A stretch of 35,990 nucleotides of DNA, taken from positions 1-35,990 of the forward strand of contig CAKZKA010000215.1 in the NCBI GenBank assembly GCA_937120965.1. Reading direction: 5' to 3'. The position numbers and the translations under genes were made by a program. Of this stretch, positions 7,746 to 25,741 are shown piece by piece (position 1 is the first letter of the stretch; each line of letters opens with the position of its first letter). The notes under the pieces were generated by a model. That model worked only from the letters and a program-made list of their open reading frames with translations, did no database searches and was not told the DNA's origin. The DNA is from an uncultured Chloroflexota bacterium. Lineage in GTDB: Bacteria > Chloroflexota > Chloroflexia > Chloroflexales > Chloroflexaceae.

Positions 7746-7772
7746 TCCGCGGGCACGATGCGGAGAGGACCT

Positions 7773-9575
7773 ATGCCACAGCATATTCTGGTTGCCGTTG
7801 CCTGGCCCTATGCCAACGGCCCGCGCCACATTGGTCACGTGGCGGGGTTCGGCGTTCCGGCAGATATCTTCGCCCGTTACCACCGCCTGGCGGGCAATCG
7901 CGTGCTGATGGTCTCGGGCACCGATGAGCACGGCACGCCAATTACGATTGTTGCCGAGAAAGAGGGCCTGACGCCCCGCGAAGTGGCCGATCGCTACAAC
8001 CGGATCATTGCCGACGATCTGCACAATCTGGGTCTGAGCTACGATCTATTCACCCGCACGACCACGCTCAACCACTACCGGGTCACGCAGGATGTGTTCA
8101 AAACCCTGTTTGACAAGGGGTATGTGCTGCGCCAGGAGACGCTGGGGGCCTTTTCGGCCACCACGGGCCGCACCCTGCCCGACCGCTACATCGAGGGCAC
8201 CTGCCCCCTCTGCGGGTACGGCGAGGCGCGTGGCGATCAGTGCGATAACTGCGGCAGCCAGCTCGATCCGACCGATCTGATCAACCCGCGTTCCAAGATT
8301 GATGGTAGCCCGCCGGTCTTCAAGACCACCGAGCATTTCTTTCTCGACCTGCCCGCATTCGCGGAGCGGCTGCAGAACTGGATCGCAAAACAGGAGCACT
8401 GGCGGCCCAATGTCCGCAGCTTCTCGCTCAACTTTATCAAGGATCTGAAACCACGGCCAATTACCCGCGATCTGGACTGGGGCGTACCCATTCCGCTCCC
8501 TGAGTACGAACACCGCGACGACAAGCGGATCTACGTCTGGTTCGACGCTGTGATCGGCTACCTCTCGGCCAGCATCGAGTGGGCCCATAACCGCGGCACG
8601 CCCGATGCCTGGCGCGACTGGTGGCAGAACCGCTACGCGCGCCATTACTACTTCATGGGCAAGGACAACATCGTCTTTCACACGGTGATCTGGCCTGCCC
8701 AGTTGATGGGGGTGTTTAGCGATGGGCACTATGCGGGCAGCGCAGCGGGGGCCTTCGCTGAAGTGTCATTGCAATTGCCCTACAACGTCGTCAGTAGCGA
8801 GTTCCTGACGATGGAGGGCAAGAAGTTTTCAAGCAGTCGCGGCGTGGTGATTTACGTCAAAGACTTCTTGAGCCGCTATGATGCCGATGCGCTGCGCTAC
8901 TTCCTCACCATCGCCGGCCCCGAGAACCAGGACACCGATTTTACCTGGGCCGAGTTTGTGCGCCGCAACAACGACGAACTGGTCGCCACCTGGGGTAACC
9001 TGGTCAACCGCACCCTTACCAATGTACACCGCACCTTCGGGGCGGTGCCGCGCCCGGGTACGTTGCAGGAGGGTGACCAGCGTCTGCTTGACGAGGTCGA
9101 GGGTGGTTTTGCCAGTGTCGGCGCGATGATCGAGGATGTGCGCTTCAAAGCTGCTCTGACCGAGGCTATGCGCCTGGCCGCGCAGGTCAATAGCTACCTG
9201 AGTGAGCAGGAACCCTGGAAGGTGATCAAGGACGACCCGGAACGCGCCGCGACCATCTGGTACGTGGCTCTGCGCTGCGTGAATAGTCTGAAGATCCTGT
9301 TTACGCCCTTCTTGCCCTTCAGTAGCCAGCGCCTGCACGAGTACCTCGGGTTTGATGGGTACATTGCCGGGCCGCTGGAGTTCAAAGAGTACACCGAGGA
9401 GGACGGGCGTAGCCATCGGGTGCTGACGGGCAACTATAGTTGCTGGATCGGACGCTGGGAGCCGCCGCGTCTGCCTATCGGTCAGACCCTGCGCCAGCCT
9501 GAGCCGCTGTTCAAGAAGCTCGATGAGAAGATCATCGAAGAAGAACTCGAGCGTATGCGCGCGGCCTTGAAGTAA
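7773..9575 (+). CDS. metG: Methionyl-tRNA synthetase
   Basis: The 600-residue enzyme charges tRNA-Met with methionine using ATP. The class I signature HIGH is at residues 19-22, preceded by [10 protein letters not shown] zinc knuckle follows at about 144-160 (CPLCG...CDNCG), in the connective-peptide domain. [23 protein letters not shown] contributes to the methionine pocket, and the KMSKS loop is present as KFSSS (351-355). The C terminus carries the anticodon-binding helices and stops without a fused EMAP-type tRNA-binding domain. I chose the ATG at 7773 because GGAGAGG lies four bases upstream; an ATG at 7758 would add MRRGP but has no such site. A strong terminator follows 37 bases after the stop. 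Confidence 0.95.
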
Positions 9576-9969: not shown

Positions 9970-10083
9970 GGGGAAACCAGGTTTCCCCGTCCCCCTGCCG
10001 GTGGGGGCGACAAGCCCTCCCCACCGGGAGGGTTTGGGAGGGCTACGCCGCGAGAAGCCCGGGAAAACCCGGTTTTCTCGCGC
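9970..10083. repeat. Family 3 palindromes flanking a family 2 fragment
   Basis: GGGGAAACCAGGTTTCCCC (9970-9988) is a 9-bp-arm palindrome. It is followed by an inverted family 2 fragment (ACCGGGAGGGTTTGGGAGGGC, 10023-10043) and by CGAGAAGCCC-GGGAAAACCC-GGTTTTCTCG (10051-10080), a second family 3 type palindrome. No gene is seen in 10084-10194 apart from the ribosome-binding site of the next gene. Confidence 0.75.
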
Positions 10084-10194: not shown

Positions 10195-10731
10195 ATGAAG
10201 GTCCTTCGTCTGGTACTTGTCTCACTGTTCGCCATCGTGCTCACCGCCATCCCCGGGCTTGCGGCAGCGCAATCGACGCCTGCCGCGGTCTCCGGCACGC
10301 TCTCGCTGCGAGAGCGGGTCGCCTTGCCGGGGAACGCCGTGGTGACGGTGCAGATTGCCGAAGTGGCCGCCGCCGGTCGCACCGGCGCGCTGATCGCCGA
10401 GCAGCGCTTCACGACCAACAATGCCCAGCCTCCCTTCCGCTACACCGTAACCTACGACCCGGCGCGGATCGATCCTAACCGGCTCTACACCGTGCAGGCC
10501 AATATCAGTGTCGGCGGACAGGTGCGCTTCACCACCAACCAGGTGTACCGGGTGATCACCGGTGGGGCGCCGGTGAGCGACGTGAACATTGTGCTGGTGG
10601 GTGTGCGCCTGCCCAATGGCAATACGGGCGCCGCGCCCCTGCTGATTGCCGGTATGGCCCTGCTAGCCGCCATGGCCGTGTTTGCGACCCGTCGCCTCCT
10701 GGCGCCTCGCCGCGAGCGGGTGATCGCGTGA
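10195..10731 (+). CDS. YbaY/YscW-like secreted protein with C-terminal membrane tail
   Basis: The 178-residue protein has a signal peptide (about 1-26, ending LAAAQS), a beta-rich core of the YbaY type (VSGTLSLRERVALPGNAVVT, then AEQRFTTNNAQPPFRYTVTYDPARIDPNRLY, then FTTNQVYRVIT), and a tail with LPNGNTG, a hydrophobic stretch (about 147-168) and basic residues. YbaY relatives are usually lipoproteins; this one has no lipobox but ends like a sortase substrate, and a sortase gene is the next gene downstream. I chose the ATG at 10195 because GGAGG lies four bases before it; a GTG-free extension from 10168 lacks support. Likely location: outside face of the cell, membrane- or wall-anchored. Function unknown. 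Confidence 0.75.
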   Translation: MKVLRLVLVSLFAIVLTAIPGLAAAQSTPAAVSGTLSLRERVALPGNAVVTVQIAEVAAAGRTGALIAEQRFTTNNAQPPFRYTVTYDPARIDPNRLYTVQANISVGGQVRFTTNQVYRVITGGAPVSDVNIVLVGVRLPNGNTGAAPLLIAGMALLAAMAVFATRRLLAPRRERVIA

Positions 10732-10779
10732 TGGCAGGCCTGATTTGAGAGCGTGTGCCTGGATGTCTTGCGAAGGTGG

Positions 10780-10883
10780 GTGTTCACACTTTTCCCGGGT
10801 GCGCAGGCTCTTGCGCGCACCCAGGTCATTGCGGGCGGGACGCCCGCGCTCCCGGGGTAACGACTTACCCCACATGTGAACAC
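10780..10883. repeat. Double-hairpin repeat bounded by 9-bp inverted repeats (family 4)
   Basis: GTGTTCACA (10780-10788) and TGTGAACAC (10875-10883) are perfect inverted ends. Inside are a GGGTGCGC...GCGCACCC hairpin and the GCGGGCG-GGA-CGCCCGC hairpin, followed by TTACCCCACA. The same parts recur at 27679-27871. Confidence 0.8.
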
Positions 10884-10891
10884 GTACTTGC

Positions 10892-10918
10892 GGAGGGGCC
10901 AAAGGCCCCTCTAATTTT
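10892..10918 (+). terminator. Rho-independent terminator after the YbaY-like gene
   Basis: An 8-9-bp stem GAGGGGCC-AAA-GGCCCCTC is followed by TAATTTT. It lies about 160 bases after the YbaY-like gene, beyond the family 4 repeat, and would separate that gene from the sortase gene at least partly. Confidence 0.75.
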
Positions 10919-10975
10919 CCGCGTTTTTGCCCGCTTACGCACCTCCTCTGTGACCCGTCACACGGTGATCGCGTC

Positions 10976-12181
10976 ATGATACGTGTGAGACGAACTCGCT
11001 TCCTGCGCGCAGGTGTGCTGACGCCGCTGCTGGCCCTGGCCGTGTGGTGGATTGCCGCCAGTATTGGGAGGGCTGCCCCTCTGGCACAGGCGGTTGCGCC
11101 GGCCTGCTTTGCCGAGACCGGCTATTGTATTGATGGCCGCATCCGACAACTCTGGGAAAGCGGCGGCGGGCTGATGGTGTTCGGTTTTCCGATCACCGGG
11201 GTGCAGCCGGAGGCGATCGAGGGCCGCGTGGTAATGGTGCAGTGGTTCGAACGGGCACGGATCGAGTTGCATCCCGATCTGCCCTACCCGTACGATGCGC
11301 TTATCGGGCGGGTGGGCGCGGAGGCACTCGCGCGCCACGCCGGGGCGCGACCGCTGGCCAGCACGGCAATGGTTGGCGAATGCCGCGCCTTTGTCGAAAC
11401 CGGGTTGAGCGTGTGTGGGGAGTTCCTCGCCGCCTGGCTCGCCGCCGGCGCGGATCTTGGCGGAGATGGCGCGCTGAACGAACGCGAGAGCCTGGCGCTG
11501 TACGGTCTGCCCCTCACCCCGCCACGCACCGAGCGATTGGCCGATGGCAGGACCTATGTGGTGCAGTGGTTCGAACGGGCGCGTTTCGAGTTGCACCCGG
11601 AGATCGCCGAGGGGTTGGTGCTGCGCGGGCTCCTTGGCCGCGAAGCTGCACCCGTAGCGGTTGACCCGCCCGGCGCCGCATTCCCAGCGCCTGTGCCCGC
11701 GCCGGCGCCGGTTCCGGCGCCTGCCCTGGCTCCGCCGGTCCGCCTGCTGATCCCGGCTATCGGGTTGGACGTTGCTACCGTGCCGGCAGGTTCCGACGAG
11801 ACCGGCGCATTTGTGGTTCCCGATCACGATGTGGGCTGGTTCAGCGGGAGCGCCAAGCCCGGCGAGGGTGAGAACATTGTGCTGTGGGGCCACGTGTTGC
11901 CATTCATGGCGCGGCCACATATCCCTGCGCCGTTCGCCCGCCTGCGCGAGGTAGGCCCGGGCGCCCGGGTGGCGCTCTACGATGCCTCCGGGCAGCGTCA
12001 CGAGTACGTGGTGACGCAGCAGATGCGCGTGGCCCCGGAACAGATCGAGTTCCTCTTCCCGCAGGGCCGCGAAATGGTGACGATCATCTCCTGCACCGGG
12101 GAGAGCATCGTGGTCGGCGGCGCCGTGGTTGACTTTACCGAACGACTGGTCGTTATTGCCGAGCCGACCGGATCCTCGTAA
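10976..12181 (+). CDS. Sortase with duplicated WFERAR N-terminal repeats
   Basis: The 401-residue protein starts with a membrane/signal segment (about 14-34). Two repeats follow, each a FGFP/YGLP-type turn plus VQWFERARxELHP (WFERAR at 90-95 and 198-203); similar cell-wall-associated repeats occur in secreted Chloroflexota proteins. A Pro/Ala linker (about 236-254) leads to a sortase domain with the catalytic triad His306 (LWGHV), Cys373 (ISCTG) and Arg390 (FTERL). Sortases cleave a sorting signal in secreted proteins and join it to an amine acceptor on the cell surface. Putative substrates are the flanking secreted proteins. The ATG at 10976 has no strong ribosome-binding site. The repeats could position the enzyme on wall polymer; that is inference. 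Confidence 0.88.
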   Translation: MIRVRRTRFLRAGVLTPLLALAVWWIAASIGRAAPLAQAVAPACFAETGYCIDGRIRQLWESGGGLMVFGFPITGVQPEAIEGRVVMVQWFERARIELHPDLPYPYDALIGRVGAEALARHAGARPLASTAMVGECRAFVETGLSVCGEFLAAWLAAGADLGGDGALNERESLALYGLPLTPPRTERLADGRTYVVQWFERARFELHPEIAEGLVLRGLLGREAAPVAVDPPGAAFPAPVPAPAPVPAPALAPPVRLLIPAIGLDVATVPAGSDETGAFVVPDHDVGWFSGSAKPGEGENIVLWGHVLPFMARPHIPAPFARLREVGPGARVALYDASGQRHEYVVTQQMRVAPEQIEFLFPQGREMVTIISCTGESIVVGGAVVDFTERLVVIAEPTGSS

Positions 12182-12394
12182 GCGTCCCTCGCAGAGGCGC
12201 GAAGATGGCGCAAGTGTGAGCAGGGGCGCCTCCCTCAACAGGAGGAGAGCGGGTCTTCTCACGCCTTTCCCGGTGGGAAGGGGCGCCGCGCGTCTGTCCA
12301 GGGATGTCTCTGTGCCTTGTGTCATCGTGCCGCGCAGCCGCGCAAAGGGCCGATAGACAGGGCGTCGCGCCATAGACAACGATGAGGTTGAGGT

Positions 12395-13270
12395 ATGAAT
12401 CACACAGATGCTCACAGGGGAAGGATGGGGAGGATCGCCTTGCTCGTGGCGCTCCTGGCGGCGCTCCTGGCGGCGCTTCCTGTCGTCGCGCAGGAAGCGC
12501 CGCCTGCGGGGCCGGTGGGTGATGAAGCGCTCCCCCAGCAGGGCGGGGGACAGGTGGTGTATCTCCCGGTGATCAGGCGCGGGCCGGCCAACGTTCAGCT
12601 CGCCCTGCGCCCCGTGCCGCTCCAGCAGGTGCAGCGGGGAACCATCCTGTCGGTCGAGTTTCGCCTGACCAATGTCGATCAGGCCGTTGCCCCATCAACG
12701 CTGCTCAGCCTTGCATACTCCTCACGCCTGACCATCTTTACCGAGACCGCCCTTGCGCCGGGCGACACGCAGGTTAGCTTTGACGACACCCGCGTGACGG
12801 TCCGGGTCAACAACGTCCCGCCGGGGCAGACCCGCACCGGGCGGATCAACTTCTTTGTGCGCCGCGATGCGCCGGTGGGTGACCGCATCCCCCTCTACGC
12901 CACCTTCCAGTGCCCGGCTGGCCTCTGTCGCACCGCACTGGTTCAGGTAGAAATTATTCGCAACGAGGAGGAAGGAGTCGGTGGCATCTTCAATCTCACC
13001 GTCTCTCCCGACCGGGGGCCGCCCGGCACTGCCCACGTGTTTACCGCCGATTTCTTCTCGCCCGGCGAAGAGATCGTGACCTGGTTGAATACGGAGACCG
13101 ACGTTGTGCCCCTCGACATCACCACCACCGCCGACGGAGCGGGGCGCATCCGGATCGTGTTCGGGAGCGGGGGCCTGTCGCCTGGCTTCTACAGCCTGGT
13201 TGCCCACGGTGAGCGCAGCGACATCACCGGAGTCGGGGCCTTCATTGTGACCGGGCCCGGCGTGCCGTAG
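12395..13270 (+). CDS. Secreted Ig-like beta-sandwich protein
   Basis: The 291-residue product has a signal peptide (about 11-32, with two LLAAL repeats, ending VVAQE), then two beta-sandwich regions. The first (about 65-185) resembles cohesin-like or DUF11-type surface domains (GTILSVEFRLTNVDQAVAP...GRINFFVRRDAPVGDRIPLY). The second (about 200-288) has an IPT/Ig-like look (LTVSPDRGPPGTAHVFTADFFSPGE...GFYSLVAHGERS). No sortase tail or membrane anchor is seen at the C terminus, so the mature form is probably released or held by other proteins. GAGGTTGAGGT directly precedes the ATG. It follows the sortase gene in the same direction with a gap of 213 bases. Exact family not recognised. Confidence 0.7.
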   Translation: MNHTDAHRGRMGRIALLVALLAALLAALPVVAQEAPPAGPVGDEALPQQGGGQVVYLPVIRRGPANVQLALRPVPLQQVQRGTILSVEFRLTNVDQAVAPSTLLSLAYSSRLTIFTETALAPGDTQVSFDDTRVTVRVNNVPPGQTRTGRINFFVRRDAPVGDRIPLYATFQCPAGLCRTALVQVEIIRNEEEGVGGIFNLTVSPDRGPPGTAHVFTADFFSPGEEIVTWLNTETDVVPLDITTTADGAGRIRIVFGSGGLSPGFYSLVAHGERSDITGVGAFIVTGPGVP

Positions 13271-13307: not shown

Positions 13308-13535
13308 CCGGAGGGCTATGCCCTCCCAAACCCTCCCCGCTGGCGGGTTGTTTCCTGGGAGGGCGTAGAGGCGCGGCGCCGCCGCGCCTCTACGTCCAAC
13401 CCCCCCTCAGGGAGGGGGATGGGGAAACCCGGTTTCCCCATGCCCCAACCGCTGGTGGAAGCGGCTGGCACCCCCCACAGGCAGGGGTGCGGTTCGACAG
13501 GCTCACCGCAGGTGGGGAAACCCGGTTTCCCCGTA
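13308..13535. repeat. Cluster of palindromic repeats (families 2 and 3 plus a 23-bp unit)
   Basis: In order: GGAGGGCTATGCCCTCCCAAACCCTCC (13310-13336); a hairpin with arms GGCGTAGAGGCGCGGC / GCCGCGCCTCTACGTC around GCC (13362-13396); an 11-bp-arm palindrome ATGGGGAAACC-C-GGTTTCCCCAT (13419-13441); an inverted copy of the 23-bp unit found at 1-69 with about 38 bp of identity including its flank (13472-13511); and GGGGAAACCCGGTTTCCCC (13514-13532) followed by TATGTTCACCTCAG. No gene is present in 13271-13543. Confidence 0.85.
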
Positions 13536-15265: not shown

Positions 15266-15332
15266 CGGTGAACATATGGGGAAACCCGGTTTCCCCTTAT
15301 CATTCTGGCGTTGTGCGGCGCAGCCGCATAGC
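15266..15332. repeat. Family 3 palindrome joined to family 2 end
   Basis: GGTGAACATAT is followed by the perfect GGGGAAACCCGGTTTCCCC (15278-15296) and then CATTCTGGCGTTGTGCGGCGCAGCCGCATAG. This joins a family 3 palindrome directly to the right-hand end of family 2, showing that the parts are shuffled as modules. Confidence 0.85.
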
Positions 15333-15932: not shown

Positions 15933-16934
15933 ATGACAAAGCATCCGAAGTTGTTACTCGCAGATGTAGAGAAGGCTGCTATCTTCCCTGTCTTTGAAAC
16001 AGAGTATGGAGTACTCTATCAGGGAGATTGCCTTGCCTTATTGAAGGCAATTCCTGATACGAGTATTGACATGATTTTTGCTGACCCCCCTTTTAATTTA
16101 GGTAAGGATTACGGAAAGAATATTTCTGATAGTTTGAAAAAGGATGAATATTTAACTTGGTCACGTCGTTGGTTAGCTGAATGTGTTCGAGTACTCAAAC
16201 CGGGTGCTAGTCTCTTCATATTCAACTTGCCAATATGGCTTATCGAATACGGGGCTTTTTTGAATGCAAATAATATGTCTTTTCGGCATTGGATCGCCTG
16301 TCGTATGCCGAAAACATTTCCTCGAGGGAAAAAGTTGTCTCCAGCACATTACGGCTTGCTTTACTACACCAAGGGAGACCCGTCAACATTTAATAAGGTT
16401 TATGTTCCTGTTCCTACATGTCGTCACTGTGGAAAAGAGATTCGTGACTACGGTGGGCATCGAAAGAAACTGAATGAGCGTGGCTTGAACATGATGGATG
16501 TTTTCGAACATGCGGACGAAATTTGGGAACCTGCTGTCGAGGAAAAGGGGTCTCACACTCAACTATGGACTGATGCTGAAGACATTTGGGATGATATACC
16601 TCCAGTACGGCACGGGAAATATAAAACCCGTACTGCAAATGAGTTGGCTCCTATCATGTTGGAACGGTTAATTCAGCTATCTACAAATCAGGGTGATCTG
16701 GTGCTTGATCCTTTTGGAGGTTCAGGTACTACGTACTATGCTGCTGAAAAAATGCATCGCCGCTGGCTAGGAGTAGAAATTGGGGATGTCGATCCTGCTA
16801 TTCGGCGAATGACTGATTATCAGAAGGGGATCTATGCTGAGTGGGAATCTGCAAGAGGCAATGGGCATAAGCAGCGAAACAGCATCGGGCAACTCAAAAT
16901 GTTTGAGCAAGCATTTTCACGATATGAATCTTAA
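15933..16934 (+). CDS. Site-specific DNA methyltransferase of a type II R-M system
   Basis: The 333-residue enzyme has the beta-class order: catalytic motif IV DPPF at 51-54 first and the SAM-binding motif I DPFGGSGTT at 259-267 last. DPP(F/Y) usually marks N6-adenine methylation, though some N4-cytosine enzymes share it. Between them is the target-recognition region containing a small CRHCGKEIRDYGGH cluster that could bind zinc. The enzyme would protect host DNA from the neighbouring endonuclease. AGGGG lies eight bases before the ATG, and a consensus promoter lies 34 bases upstream. The gene is much AT-richer than flanking genes and uses more A/T-ending codons, pointing to horizontal acquisition. 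Its stop overlaps the stop of the convergent endonuclease gene. Confidence 0.9.
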   Translation: MTKHPKLLLADVEKAAIFPVFETEYGVLYQGDCLALLKAIPDTSIDMIFADPPFNLGKDYGKNISDSLKKDEYLTWSRRWLAECVRVLKPGASLFIFNLPIWLIEYGAFLNANNMSFRHWIACRMPKTFPRGKKLSPAHYGLLYYTKGDPSTFNKVYVPVPTCRHCGKEIRDYGGHRKKLNERGLNMMDVFEHADEIWEPAVEEKGSHTQLWTDAEDIWDDIPPVRHGKYKTRTANELAPIMLERLIQLSTNQGDLVLDPFGGSGTTYYAAEKMHRRWLGVEIGDVDPAIRRMTDYQKGIYAEWESARGNGHKQRNSIGQLKMFEQAFSRYES

Positions 16935-17524
16935 ACGAGCGCACGCCCATCTGTACCCTTTGTGATAAGAGGCACTTTTGGATCAATATGATCATGTTCT
17001 ATTGCAATTACTGTCATAAAACCCTGTTCAACATGAAGGCTTTTCCAGATTTGGAAATATGGTTCAAGTTCCTCATAGTTTCCAATTCTGTCCGTCAAGT
17101 ATTTGTAAGTGTTGCGAGTTGGCAACACAAGCACTCCTCCTACGATGATCCCATGAAGAAGACCTAATGCGATTCTATTGAGAGATCGATGGCTCGATGA
17201 GATATTCCCCGTCTCCCACTCAAGAACGAATGGTTTTGTTTGTGTTTGTTTGAGCGCGTCTACTTTGCCTACCTTTTTAAAACCTCGCGGAAAAATGAAC
17301 TCTTCTGTCTTCCATCTAAATCTTTCGCGCAAAACGATCATGCATCCATCTTTTATAGGTTTCACTCCGTTACCTTTTCGTACTGGATTTATACTGAAAT
17401 TACTAGCTCCTTTAGGCCAGACGACTGATGCTATGGAGTTGTGAATTTCTTCTCGAATGGTCGTCCATTCTCCGCTTTCAAATACTCCAGCGTTTATCAG
17501 GTTAGTCTCGTGAACGATTCGCAT
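16931..17524 (-). CDS. Type II restriction endonuclease, BglII/BamHI-like
   Basis: The 197-residue protein resembles the BglII/BstYI/BamHI group. VDALKQ (Asp89) is followed by FVLEWETGNISSSHRSLNRIALGLL with Glu102-Trp-Glu104 as the ExE part of a PD-(D/E)xK variant site, and the following GIIVGGVLVLPT matches the hydrophobic core strand of that group. It would cut double-stranded DNA at a site protected by the adjacent methyltransferase; the group's known sites have a GATC centre, so such a site is predicted, not shown. AGGA lies eight bases before the ATG. It is convergent with the methyltransferase, with a four-base overlap of the two stop codons (TTAA). Composition is AT-rich like its partner. 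Confidence 0.82.
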   Translation of the reverse strand: MRIVHETNLINAGVFESGEWTTIREEIHNSIASVVWPKGASNFSINPVRKGNGVKPIKDGCMIVLRERFRWKTEEFIFPRGFKKVGKVDALKQTQTKPFVLEWETGNISSSHRSLNRIALGLLHGIIVGGVLVLPTRNTYKYLTDRIGNYEELEPYFQIWKSLHVEQGFMTVIAIEHDHIDPKVPLITKGTDGRALV

Positions 17525-21706: not shown

Positions 21707-23209
21707 ATGCACGATCGACAGGCTGGATGGCTGGAGCGCGCGCTCCTGCCGCTACTCGCCGCCCTGGCCGCCCTCTCTGCCGCGATGCTGGTGGCCCAGG
21801 CGCTCAATCCGCAGCCGCAGACGCTGGCCGGGCTTACCCTCGACCGCCTGAGCGCGACCATCGGACTGCTGGTGGCCGTAGTGGGTGTGGTAGTTTACCG
21901 TTTCGCCTTGCGCTATCTGGATGGTGAACCCCGGCAGCGGAGCTTCCTCCGCTGGCTGGCCTTCACGGTGCTGGCAGCCTATACCTTCGTCTTCGCCACC
22001 CACCTGCTGGTGCTCTTTGGCGCCTGGCTGCTGACCAGCATCGGTCTGCATCAGCTCCTGACCTACTACCGCGACCGGTACGAGGCCATTCCCCCGGCGC
22101 GGAAGAAGTTCCTCATCAGCCGGCTGGGCGATGTGGCCCTCATTGCCGCGATTGCAATCATCTTCTGGCAGTGGGGCACCCTCGACCTGAACGTGTTCCT
22201 GGCGCGCCTCAGCGACCCCGTGGCCTGGTCGCCGGCCCTCGATGTGGTCGCCCTGCTGGTGGTCACCGGCGCGTTGACCAAGTCGGCCCAGTTCCCCTTC
22301 CATAGCTGGCTCCCCGAGACGATGGAGGCGCCTACGCCGGTGTCGGCGCTGATGCACGCCGGGATCATCAATGGCGGCGGGGTACTGCTGCTCCACTTCG
22401 CGCCGCTGATTGTGCAGTCGCCACTGGCGCTCCTGAACCTGGTGGTCGTGGGGACGCTGACCGCGACCCTGGGGATGCTGGCGATGTGGGCCCAGACCAA
22501 TGTGAAGCGTACCCTGGCCTGGTCCACCGTTGGCCAGATGGGCTTTATGATGGTGCAGATCGGTCTGGCGGCTTTCCCTGCGGCCATCCTGCACCTGGTC
22601 GGGCACGGCTGCTACAAGGCCTGGTCGTTCCTCCGCACCGGCGATCTGCCGCGGCGCGCGGCGCCTGCGCCGAAGCTGGCCCCCGGTCAGGCCGTGCTGC
22701 TGGCAGTGATCGGCACGCTGGCGGCGGCGCCTGCCCTGGCCCTGGCCAGTGTGATCACCGGCTTTGACCCCTTCCAGTCGCCCGGCAAGCTGGCCCTTTC
22801 GATCATCCTGGCCATGGCCATCGGGCAGTTCTGGGTGGCCTGCTTCCAGGCCCCGCGAGCGCCTGCCAGCGGCTCTCTTGCGCCCACGCTGGTGTCCATC
22901 GCCGGCACGCTGGTGGCGGCAGTGCTCGCCTTCGGCCTGTATGAAGGGGCGGCGCAGTTCTTCGCCCCGGTGTTCGGCGAGTTGCCCACGCCTACCGGCC
23001 CCCTGGCCTGGATTGCGGCCATCATCCCTGTGGCTGTCTTCCTCATCCTGGGCATCGTCTACGGTCTGCTGCCGGCCCTGGGCCGCACGGCCGCCGGACG
23101 GGCCTTCTATGTCCACGCCCTGCACGGGTTTTACCTGGGCGCCATCGCCGACCGACTGGTTGAGCGGGTCTGGGGCGGCTCCTCGCTGCCTGACGCCCGG
23201 CAAGCGTAG
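21707..23209 (+). CDS. dabB: DabB: NuoL-like subunit of an inorganic carbon transporter
   Basis: The 500-residue membrane protein has about a dozen hydrophobic segments and the proton-antiporter core of NADH dehydrogenase subunit 5 (NuoL/MrpA), including KSAQFPFHSWLPETMEAPTPVSALMHAGIINGGG (about 189-222) and NVKRTLAWSTVGQMGFMM. In DAB systems this subunit couples an ion gradient to bicarbonate accumulation by DabA. It is short for NuoL and lies immediately before dabA with no other complex I genes, which supports DabB. AAGGAG lies six bases before the ATG. A 174-base gap with a hairpin separates it from dabA. Confidence 0.9.
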   Translation: MHDRQAGWLERALLPLLAALAALSAAMLVAQALNPQPQTLAGLTLDRLSATIGLLVAVVGVVVYRFALRYLDGEPRQRSFLRWLAFTVLAAYTFVFATHLLVLFGAWLLTSIGLHQLLTYYRDRYEAIPPARKKFLISRLGDVALIAAIAIIFWQWGTLDLNVFLARLSDPVAWSPALDVVALLVVTGALTKSAQFPFHSWLPETMEAPTPVSALMHAGIINGGGVLLLHFAPLIVQSPLALLNLVVVGTLTATLGMLAMWAQTNVKRTLAWSTVGQMGFMMVQIGLAAFPAAILHLVGHGCYKAWSFLRTGDLPRRAAPAPKLAPGQAVLLAVIGTLAAAPALALASVITGFDPFQSPGKLALSIILAMAIGQFWVACFQAPRAPASGSLAPTLVSIAGTLVAAVLAFGLYEGAAQFFAPVFGELPTPTGPLAWIAAIIPVAVFLILGIVYGLLPALGRTAAGRAFYVHALHGFYLGAIADRLVERVWGGSSLPDARQA

Positions 23210-23242
23210 CGGCTGAGCGCCGTGCTGGTGCAAGGAGGGGGT

Positions 23243-23265
23243 GGGCGTCCCGTGTGAGGACGCCC
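23243..23265 (+). terminator. Hairpin between dabB and dabA
   Basis: GGGCGTCC-CGTGTGA-GGACGCCC, an 8-bp perfect stem, extended by further C/G pairs, without a T-run. It may stabilise or attenuate the transcript between the two subunit genes rather than end it. Confidence 0.45.
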
Positions 23266-23333
23266 CCACAGGGGCCTCTGCGCCCTGATCCGACACCATC
23301 ACGGTGGCAGGCCAGAAGTGTCACAAGGTGCTG

Positions 23334-23361
23334 CTCGTCACTCGTCACTGGTCACTCGTCA
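23334..23361. repeat. Four tandem heptamers
   Basis: CTCGTCA CTCGTCA CTGGTCA CTCGTCA, just upstream of the dabA ribosome-binding site. Copy number could vary by slippage. Confidence 0.8.
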
Positions 23362-23383
23362 CTCGACTCGAAAGGAGCCGCGT

Positions 23384-25741
23384 GTGCTGAAGCTGGTTGA
23401 TACCGCACAGATTGATTACGTTGCGCCATCGGTACTGGAGGATGTCCTGGCCGTGTGCCGGCGCATTCCGCCGCTGTGGGATCTGGAGAACTATGTGGCG
23501 GTGAACCCCTTCCTGGGGTTTGCCGGGCAGCCCCTCGACCAGGCGGCCCGCCAGATCCGCGACGGGTTGGGAGCGCGGGTGCTGCCGGACATCGCCTACT
23601 ACCGCGAGCGCTGGCGCGCGGGCGCGTTTAGCAGGGCCGATCTGGAACTGGCGGCGCAGCGGGCCGATCAGGACCCGGCGCTGCTGGCGGCGATCCTCGA
23701 CGGAACCGCGCCGGCGCCGATGCGCCGGGCGGGGGTCGTGCTGACCTTTGCCGAGCGGTACGACCGCGTGCACGGGACGCACTGGAACGAACGGGCCATT
23801 CGTTACGCCGCGGCCTGGTGCGCGGCGCAGATCCCCGCCGACGGGCCGACCTGGGGGCGCGCGCCGAAGCCGATGGGCCTGTACGCCTCCTGGCGCGAAG
23901 CGGCCTGTGTTGATCGCTCGCTCGAGATCCGCGGCCTGCGGGGCTGGCGCGCCTGGGCCGCGCAGTTGCCCACCGAGCCGCTGGCGGCCATCGAGCGCGT
24001 GCTGGCCGACTTGCAGGTCAGCCCCGAGGAGCGGCAGGCGTACCTCTACCGGCTGCTGGGCGGGATCTTCGGCTGGGCCTCCTACCTGCGCCGCGACGTC
24101 TGGGCAGCGGGTGACAAAGAGGCCGGGCCGCTGCTCGACCTGCTGGCGATCCGTCTCTGCACCGATGCGGCGCTGGCCCGTATGGAGCCGCGCACCGCTG
24201 ATCACGCCATTGCTCCGGCAGACGCCCCGACCATCGAGGACGAGTCGGTGCGGGCGATCTTCCAGGATGCCCTGGAGAACGGCTACGCCCGTGGCCTGCT
24301 GGGCGCGCTGCAGCCCCCGCCGGCGCCCCCGACGACGCGCCCGGCCGTGCAGGCAGTCTTCTGCATTGACGTGCGCTCGGAGATCCTGCGCCGCCATCTG
24401 GAAGCCTGCTCGCCCTCCATTGAAACCCTCGGCTTCGCCGGGTTCTTCGCCGTCTTCCTCGACTGGCAGACACCCGCCGGGTCGAGCGCCCGCTGTCCCG
24501 TGCTGCTCAAGCCGGCCGTCCACATTCGCGCCCAGGCGCCTGCGCCGGCCTGGGAGGGCCGGAGCGCGCTGAAGAAACTGGCCATCGCGCCATCATCGGC
24601 CTTTGCCTTTGTCGAAACCCTGGGCCTGGGCTACGCCCTGGGACTCGTCGGCGACGCCCTCACCCGGCTAACCGCGCCGCGCGTGGATGAAGGGAACGCC
24701 GCCTTTATCCTGGACTCCGATGGAAAGAGCGGCCTCACCGTGGAGCAGCGCTGTGATATGGCGGCGCTGATCCTCAAGAACATGGGTCTGCGGGAGCGCT
24801 ACGGCCGCCTCGTGCTGCTGGCCGGCCACGAAGGGTGCAGCGAGAACAACCCGCACCAGGCCGGCCTGGATTGTGGGGCCTGTGGCGGGCACGGCGGGGC
24901 GCTCAACGCCCGCATCGCCGCGGCGGTGCTGAACGACCCGGCGGTGCGCGCGCAGTTGCCGAAGCGCGGCTTCGCCGTGCCGGCCGATACATACTTCGTG
25001 GCCGGCGTCCACGACACCAGCACCGATGAGGTGCGTCTGCTCGACACCGAGCGCATCCCGGCGAGCCACCAGGCCGACCTCGCGCAGTTGCGGGCCTGGC
25101 TGAGCAAGGCGGCGCAGGGCACGCGCCTGGAGCGTGCCCGGGCCCTCGGCATCGCCAACGGCAACGCGGAGTTGATCAACCGCGAGATTAGCCGCCGCGC
25201 CCGCGACTGGTCGGAAGTGCGCCCGGAGTGGGCGCTGGCCCGCAACGCTGCCTTCATTGCCGCGCGGCGCGCCCGTACCCGCGGCGTGAACCTGGAGGGT
25301 CGCACCTTCCTCCATGAGTACGACTGGACCACCGACCCCGACAACTCCATCCTGACCCTCATCCTCACCGCGCCGGTCGTCGTGGCCTCGTGGATCAACT
25401 TGCAGTACTTCGGCTCCACGGTGGACAACGCCTACTTCGGCTGTGGCACCAAGACCATTCACAACCGCGTCGGGACGCTGGGCGTGGTGCTGGGCAATGG
25501 CGGCGACCTGCGGACGGGCCTCGCGTTGCAGTCGGTGCAGGGGCCGGATGGACGCTGGTACCACGAGCCGCTGCGCCTGCAGGTGGTGGTCGAGGCTCCG
25601 CGCGAGCGCATCGAGGCGGTGATGCAGCAGCACGCCGTTGTGCGAGACCTGGTGGAGAACGGCTGGCTGCGGCTCTTCGTGCTCGATCCGGACGGCGCCG
25701 GCGCAGTGCGCTGGGTGCCTGGCAGCGGCTGGGAGGCGTAA
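23384..25741 (+). CDS. dabA: DabA: zinc-dependent carbonic-anhydrase-like subunit (UPF0753/DUF2309)
   Basis: The 785-residue protein matches the DUF2309/UPF0753 family. The beta-carbonic-anhydrase-like site is complete: Cys327 and Asp329 in FCIDVRSE, then His482 in LAGHEGC and Cys497 fifteen residues later in LDCGACGGHGG, the same spacing as reported for the zinc ligands of DabA. Together with DabB it converts incoming CO2 to bicarbonate in a one-way, energy-coupled manner, raising cytoplasmic bicarbonate. I chose GTG at 23384, with AAAGGAG six bases upstream; a frame from 23318 adds 22 residues encoded by the heptamer repeat. A hairpin follows the stop. Bicarbonate supply would suit biotin-dependent carboxylases. 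Confidence 0.95.
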   Translation: MLKLVDTAQIDYVAPSVLEDVLAVCRRIPPLWDLENYVAVNPFLGFAGQPLDQAARQIRDGLGARVLPDIAYYRERWRAGAFSRADLELAAQRADQDPALLAAILDGTAPAPMRRAGVVLTFAERYDRVHGTHWNERAIRYAAAWCAAQIPADGPTWGRAPKPMGLYASWREAACVDRSLEIRGLRGWRAWAAQLPTEPLAAIERVLADLQVSPEERQAYLYRLLGGIFGWASYLRRDVWAAGDKEAGPLLDLLAIRLCTDAALARMEPRTADHAIAPADAPTIEDESVRAIFQDALENGYARGLLGALQPPPAPPTTRPAVQAVFCIDVRSEILRRHLEACSPSIETLGFAGFFAVFLDWQTPAGSSARCPVLLKPAVHIRAQAPAPAWEGRSALKKLAIAPSSAFAFVETLGLGYALGLVGDALTRLTAPRVDEGNAAFILDSDGKSGLTVEQRCDMAALILKNMGLRERYGRLVLLAGHEGCSENNPHQAGLDCGACGGHGGALNARIAAAVLNDPAVRAQLPKRGFAVPADTYFVAGVHDTSTDEVRLLDTERIPASHQADLAQLRAWLSKAAQGTRLERARALGIANGNAELINREISRRARDWSEVRPEWALARNAAFIAARRARTRGVNLEGRTFLHEYDWTTDPDNSILTLILTAPVVVASWINLQYFGSTVDNAYFGCGTKTIHNRVGTLGVVLGNGGDLRTGLALQSVQGPDGRWYHEPLRLQVVVEAPRERIEAVMQQHAVVRDLVENGWLRLFVLDPDGAGAVRWVPGSGWEA

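Follow-up and report, generated by a model that had tools for sequence, protein, structure and literature searches.

Does a sortase gene lying next to a YbaY-like gene in a Chloroflexota genome form with it a dedicated enzyme–substrate set, as a preliminary description of this DNA had proposed? The DNA (hereafter the window) is a stretch of 35,990 nucleotides that makes up one whole contig (CAKZKA010000215.1; contig C215) of an uncultured Chloroflexaceae bacterium (assembly GCA_937120965.1; genome of 5.18 Mb in 307 contigs). Our analysis points to a probable pair, an LGFP-type sortase and a YbaY protein whose anchor appears to have been exchanged, which is restricted to one clade of the Chloroflexales. 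What survives of the proposal is that a Chloroflexota genome has a compact set centred on a sortase, with a plausible dedicated substrate in the product of the gene beginning at 10195; what does not survive is a phylum-wide system.

The three open reading frames (ORFs) concerned stand in a row on the plus strand, as the preliminary description had read them, and its assignment of a YbaY-like secreted protein and a sortase was borne out by Pfam matches to PF09619 and PF04203, respectively. Two features go beyond that description, a sorting-signal-like tail at the C-terminus of gene 1 and, in gene 2, an N-terminal half that contains an LGFP-type domain. The features of the locus are as follows.

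10195–10731, plus strand: gene 1, secreted YbaY/YscW-domain protein of 178 residues, the proposed sortase substrate (ORF, Pfam, orthologues)
10282–10575, plus strand: YscW/YbaY domain (PF09619) of gene 1 (Pfam)
10609–10629, plus strand: sorting-signal-like motif LPNGNTG of gene 1, LPxTSGG in relatives (sequence reading, family alignment)
10639–10728, plus strand: C-terminal hydrophobic helix (residues 149–165) and arginine-rich tail of gene 1
10976–12181, plus strand: gene 2, secreted LGFP-sortase of 401 residues (ORF, Pfam, alignment)
11105–11671, plus strand: two LGFP-type repeats of gene 2 (residues 44–232), predicted to bind the wall (Pfam in relatives, model, fold match)
11747–12166, plus strand: sortase catalytic domain of gene 2 (Pfam, alignment, fold match)
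11891–11893, 12092–12094 and 12143–12145, plus strand: catalytic codons of gene 2 for His306, Cys373 and Arg390, respectively
12395–13270, plus strand: gene 3, secreted Ig-like protein of 291 residues, a short form of a 915–921-residue protein

A YbaY protein, its C-terminal tail and the neighbouring sortase

The gene 1 product matches PF09619 with 102.4 bits against a cut-off of 22.6 (E 2.1e-29). Its N-terminus is a plain signal peptide that lacks a lipobox cysteine; at the C-terminus, RLPNGNTG leads into a hydrophobic helix and then a tail rich in arginine. A signal peptide, a hydrophobic helix at the C-terminus and a basic tail, as sortase substrates have them, are thus all present. In relatives the corresponding motifs are LPNTSGG, LPPTTGG, LPSSSTG, LPTTSDG, LPEASSG, LPNSSSG, LPQSSGG, LPAAGSE and similar forms. 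Of 29 tail-bearing YbaY proteins, 28 have Leu at position 1, all have Pro at position 2, and 21 have Gly at position 7; position 4 is Thr, Ser, Ala or Gly (in 8, 6, 12 and 3 proteins, respectively). Judged by sequence, the gene 1 tail resembles a signal for attachment by a sortase.

Two comparisons bear on this resemblance. Among 1506 called genes from the loci compared, 36 encode proteins having an N-terminal helix and a single C-terminal helix; an LP..G/S motif plus basic residues was present in 21 of 21 such YbaY proteins versus 1 of the 15 others, by a motif rule that was written after the tails had been read. When a profile of 26 YbaY tails was run against 2943 ORFs, the top matches outside YbaY were the LPxTSxG tails of a second family, that of protein P0005 of the same genome (LPHTSGG, LPQTSGG, LPETSAG and LPATSTG). 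These matches are weak (E 0.0017–0.56) and one unrelated ORF (E 0.16) ranks amid them. Note that a first tail alignment had included tails from the window's own genome, among them that of the sortase-neighbouring P0005, and thus recovered P0005 by construction; the search reported here was repeated with YbaY tails only.

Gene 2 matches the Pfam sortase family PF04203 with 64.4 bits against a curated cut-off of 26.6 (E 1.1e-17), and His306, Cys373 and Arg390 are invariant across 17 aligned LGFP-sortases, the window's included. An AlphaFold model of the protein has a whole-model mean pLDDT (predicted local distance difference test) of 65. Among the best 50 matches listed, its sortase domain aligns at Z 14–17 with solved structures from sortase classes A, C and E, including Streptococcus pyogenes SrtA bound to LPATS (7s4o). 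The N-terminal half, folded alone with 26 sequences, gave a pLDDT of 84, and its best PDB match was the C-terminal domain of Corynebacterium glutamicum mycoloyltransferase A (6swz, 6sx4; Foldseek E 2.8e-3), which we take to be a solved LGFP domain. The match has a Z of 7.7 with a root-mean-square deviation of 2.0 over 59 residues, a Z under 8 not being decisive alone. At E ≤ 1, the Pfam LGFP model (PF08310) matches 23 of the 26 sequences in the domain alignment (best 3.9e-5), the window domain itself giving no match, and LGFP-type repeats are common in the genomes compared, with many further matches. LGFP domains of corynebacterial proteins are described in an excerpt of a 2025 paper as interacting with the peptidoglycan layer (PMC12113857). 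The N-terminal half of gene 2 probably binds the cell wall.

Gene 3 gave only sub-threshold matches, to DUF6049 (0.0015, Pfam) and to an Ig-like GxPGS domain (0.0093, NCBIfam). Its orthologues have 921 residues in genome G001, where CNA-B/SdrD_B-like repeats are found by Pfam, and 915 in L242; the forms of the window, G002, G003 and G004 have 276–291, so that within the window's genus four species out of five have a protein some 630 residues shorter. None of these forms, long or short, carries a C-terminal tail, gene 3 has no sorting signal, and it was therefore set aside as a second sortase substrate on present evidence. Any role of its product in the set would probably be that of a co-displayed, non-anchored surface protein.

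Conservation of the gene pair and an apparent exchange of the YbaY anchor

A YbaY gene and a sortase gene in the same order and on the same strand, 103–293 bp apart, were found in eight Chloroflexales genomes (those of the window and L242 included), the sortases being 61–85% identical to that of the window; an arrangement this regular exceeds chance. Upstream of the pair lies metG in all seven linked genomes whose contigs extend far enough. Gene 3 follows the pair in six of the eight (five genomes of the window's genus plus L242); the exceptions are G016, in which its relative is located elsewhere, and G014, in which the contig ends. The sister genus g4 (L102, L103 and L206) keeps metG and YbaY together without the sortase.

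7758–9575, plus strand: metG (methionyl-tRNA synthetase), conserved neighbour upstream of the YbaY gene here and in the sister clade; context only

Over all 29 tail-bearing YbaY loci, a sortase is adjacent in 8 and lies 4.5 kb away on the opposite strand in 1. Different genes flank the LGFP-sortases of Roseiflexus, Ca. Chloroploca and Ca. Viridilinea (the genus labels Chloroflexus, Roseiflexus and Herpetosiphon are those we presume for some of the relatives' genomes). Conservation of the trio across Chloroflexota was rejected, since the YbaY domain itself was found in only 38 of 400 genomes of the phylum and the linkage in one clade. The preliminary description had suggested checking gene order across the phylum and had regarded freely varying neighbours as evidence against a dedicated set: the neighbours do vary outside the clade, where the adjacency breaks, but not inside it.

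In the sortase tree, a branch with 100/99 support splits the 8 linked enzymes from 17 related ones, and a distant outgroup joins the tree within the linked group, on open branches; the linked sortases are likely, though not certainly, monophyletic. Genomes G001 and G014 each hold both kinds, the linked type and the other. The residue preceding the catalytic Arg is E or Q in all 8 linked sortases and H in the other LGFP-sortases aligned.

The preliminary description had remarked that YbaY proteins are usually lipoproteins, which holds for relatives but not for gene 1: with no lipobox in its sequence, the lipoprotein assignment was ruled out for it. Within the window's family none of 35 YbaY-domain proteins has a lipobox; 26 have the tail by rule, and 27 when L203 is counted, whose tail was recognised by eye and falls under the helix threshold. 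The remaining 8 are LGFP-repeat fusions or other larger or cut proteins. Elsewhere in the phylum, a cysteine ends the signal peptide in 17 of 21 YbaY proteins (in 6 of the 17 as the weaker FC form), and the tail occurs in none of the 21. In all the YbaY proteins read, the lipobox is absent wherever the tail occurs. As the proteins outside the family mostly have the cysteine and never the tail, the anchor of YbaY was apparently exchanged in this bacterial family, an N-terminal lipid giving way to a C-terminal tail. A side observation concerns fusion proteins such as L229, L230, L231, L232 and L205, in which N-terminal LGFP-type repeats and a C-terminal YbaY domain are joined in one chain.

There is also suggestive evidence that enzyme and signal vary together, along one branch of the tree. 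The sequence VSCIGE surrounds the catalytic Cys of the four sortases beside LPxTS[GD] tails (G001, G014, G016 and L242), whereas the four beside altered tails (LPNGNTG in the window and G003, LPSSSTG in G004 and LPPTTGG in G002) have [IL]I[SA]C[TS]G[DE], in the variants IISCTGE, IISCSGD, IISCTGD and LIACTGD. The five species of the window's genus thus show four signal forms, LPNGNTG (twice), LPPTTGG, LPSSSTG and LPNTSGG.

A proposed anchoring route and its rivals

We hold it slightly more probable than its opposite that genes 1 and 2 encode a lineage-specific sortase–substrate pair, with the gene 3 product displayed beside them without an anchor. The YbaY protein would be exported by the Sec route through its signal peptide and be retained in the membrane by the C-terminal helix and arginines. 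The adjacent sortase, as the cognate enzyme, would cut it in the LP-x-[T/S/A/G]-x-x-G region by means of Cys373, His306 and Arg390 and transfer the cut protein onto a cell-wall precursor. The LGFP repeats would hold the sortase against wall glycan, and for that reason anchoring would take place at the wall face. The Ser that follows Thr in many family tails should be no obstacle, because LPATS and LPATA are both accepted in vitro by S. pyogenes SrtA, the structure of which was solved with LPATS (excerpt of PMC9520033), and S. pneumoniae SrtA accepts A, G or S at the position after Thr (excerpt of PMC8361268).

Several observations weigh against such a pair. The window signal LPNGNTG lacks the Thr that an LPxTG signal has before the expected cut, and Thr at position 4 is absent from 21 of the 29 family tails. 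This is a real difficulty, because characterised sortases are described as requiring a PXT core (excerpt of PMC5148588). For 20 of the 29 tail-bearing YbaY loci no sortase was seen in the flanking DNA compared, some of these flanks being short, and LGFP-sortases occur without any YbaY, for example in Roseiflexus. Since the eight linked genomes form one group, the linkage may go back to a single event. Gene 2 reached no NCBIfam sortase class model (A–F, GN), the best being class F with 50.6 bits versus 166, and the window's genome has five sortases, that is, four besides gene 2. Finally, the intergenic gaps of 244 and 213 bp among the three genes leave co-transcription no more than possible, as does a GC-rich stem at 10893–10911 in one of them, which was noticed by eye and not called by the scan; neither promoters nor terminators were called by the scan in the two gaps.

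The missing Thr, the many tail-bearing YbaY genes with no nearby sortase, the LGFP-sortases without YbaY and the confinement of the linkage to one clade would all suit a different explanation, that the tail is a mere transmembrane anchor, the neighbouring sortase a general enzyme with other substrates and the linkage a local accident carried by descent. We consider this rather unlikely. A plain anchor needs no L-P at a fixed place, found in 28–29 of the 29 proteins and followed by a small residue, and YbaY tails are closer to those of a second sortase-neighbouring family than other C-terminal helices are. Moreover, the linkage over 103–293 bp has survived divergence to about 61% identity. It is improbable that the YbaY protein is anchored by another sortase of the genome, such as a C108-type enzyme without LGFP repeats, gene 2 having a different target. 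The supernumerary sortases would allow it, as would a second YbaY protein of this genome, which has an LPNTSGG tail and is encoded on contig C123 with no sortase near. Likewise, Chloroflexus-type genomes (G012 and G024) have the YbaY tail and sortases, and no full-length LGFP-sortase was found in them by the search made. However, it is the gene 2 type that is adjacent in all eight linked genomes and forms a branch separate from the unlinked enzymes.

The pair could also be decaying in the window's genome, its motif having drifted from LPxTSGG to an LPNGNTG that no longer works as a signal, a reading that would accommodate the four signal forms in five species and the shortening of gene 3 but which we think very improbable. 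Both ORFs are intact, with 81–89% identity to those of G002–G004, and the catalytic residues are kept; in addition, where the signal is altered, residues next to the catalytic Cys differ as well, a pattern better explained by joint change than by loss. A bolder version of the sortase–substrate pair, to our minds quite doubtful, is that the LGFP-sortase and its YbaY substrate have changed their cleavage code jointly. In the genus the signal would have gone from LPxTSGG to LPNGNTG, LPSSSTG or LPPTTGG while VSCIGE became I(S/A)C(T/S)G(D/E), and at a larger scale the family would have swapped lipid for sortase anchoring within Chloroflexota. If this were true, the enzyme would cut a signal in which the supposedly essential Thr is missing from the usual position, and the cut might fall at a displaced Thr-Gly.

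Other sortase loci, neighbouring genes and known systems

Sortases were present in all 41 genomes searched, the window's own included. On contig C35 of that genome, P0005, a Pro/Thr-rich protein of 624 residues with DUF11 domains and an LPETSAG tail, is encoded directly behind the sortase P0004.

L113:8138–11028, own-genome contig C35: sortase P0004 and DUF11 stalk protein P0005

P0005-type tails lie about 2.0–2.7 kb from a sortase in at least 21 of the 41 genomes; these 21 loci were assigned by spacing and tail, the own-genome protein alone being examined in full. At least 29 of 60 tail matches (at least 27 of 47 at E below 0.01) fall within 3 kb of a sortase, the sortase list used consisting of 150 listed matches plus five added at approximate positions. 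In the order as a whole, the P0004/P0005 arrangement may represent the ancestral sortase system. Membership of this pair in class GN (marine) was considered, and it does not reach the GN model. Also on contig C35 (L112:1846–3294), the protein P0006, which is YbaY-like but divergent and has a C-terminal helix, is encoded convergently with the sortase P0007, and no orthologous pair was seen in 40 relatives. P0006 was considered as a second YbaY-like case: its tail (IIRVSAG) lacks LP, and its matches elsewhere are only ordinary YbaY proteins and weak ones.

Our literature search turned up no paper devoted to Chloroflexota sortases, and an excerpt of a 2006 paper mentions one sortase-like protein of Chloroflexus, giving no evidence of its function. 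One paper in the literature searched mentions both LGFP and sortases. Chloroflexota sortases are thus almost undescribed in the literature searched, yet all 41 genomes have them, and the tail-bearing proteins encoded beside them are of at least two kinds. Because enzyme and small substrate are both defined at the present locus, with signals that vary naturally among eight genomes and an apparent exchange of anchor, sortase specificity and protein anchoring in the envelope of a Chloroflexota bacterium become testable with peptides.

Other parts of the window contain a restriction–modification pair at 15933–17524, in which a DNA methylase gene (PF01555) is convergent with one for a BamHI-family restriction enzyme (PF02923, E 2.5e-61), and, at 21707–25741, a NuoL/antiporter-like gene with DabA (PF10070, E 9.2e-237) behind it, which together make up a DAB-type transporter pair for inorganic carbon. 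The palindrome GGGGAAACCNGGTTTCCCC is present in seven copies in the window at up to two mismatches (0 expected from shuffles) and resembles REP (repetitive extragenic palindromic) repeats.

9970–9988, 13421–13439, 13514–13532 and 15278–15296, plus three more: copies of GGGGAAACCNGGTTTCCCC

Among known systems, class A sortases with LPxTG substrates (e.g. S. pyogenes SrtA) have the sortase fold and the His/Cys/Arg triad in common with gene 2, and their substrates have the signal peptide, LP motif, helix and basic tail of gene 1. In contrast to those systems, gene 2 carries N-terminal LGFP-type repeats and reaches no class model, and the signal follows LPx[TSAG]xxG, without Thr at position 4 in the window. 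Class E sortases (LAxTG; Streptomyces coelicolor SrtE1 and Thermobifida fusca SrtE), which filamentous actinobacteria use for surface display (excerpt of PMC5148588), are among the best listed fold matches of gene 2 (Z about 16). However, gene 2 scores 16.9 bits against a class E cut-off of 160, and the YbaY tails have LP where class E substrates have LA. YbaY/YscW lipoproteins contain the same Pfam domain (PF09619) as gene 1 but have a lipobox, in place of which gene 1 has its C-terminal tail. The P0004/P0005 pair resembles the window pair in that a sortase stands beside a tail-bearing protein with a related tail profile, and differs from it in sortase branch and substrate. Corynebacterial mycoloyltransferase A (6swz, 6sx4) provides the top fold match for the N-terminal half of gene 2, and Pfam LGFP is found in most gene 2 relatives; unlike in that enzyme, the repeats of gene 2 are two in number and fused to a sortase.

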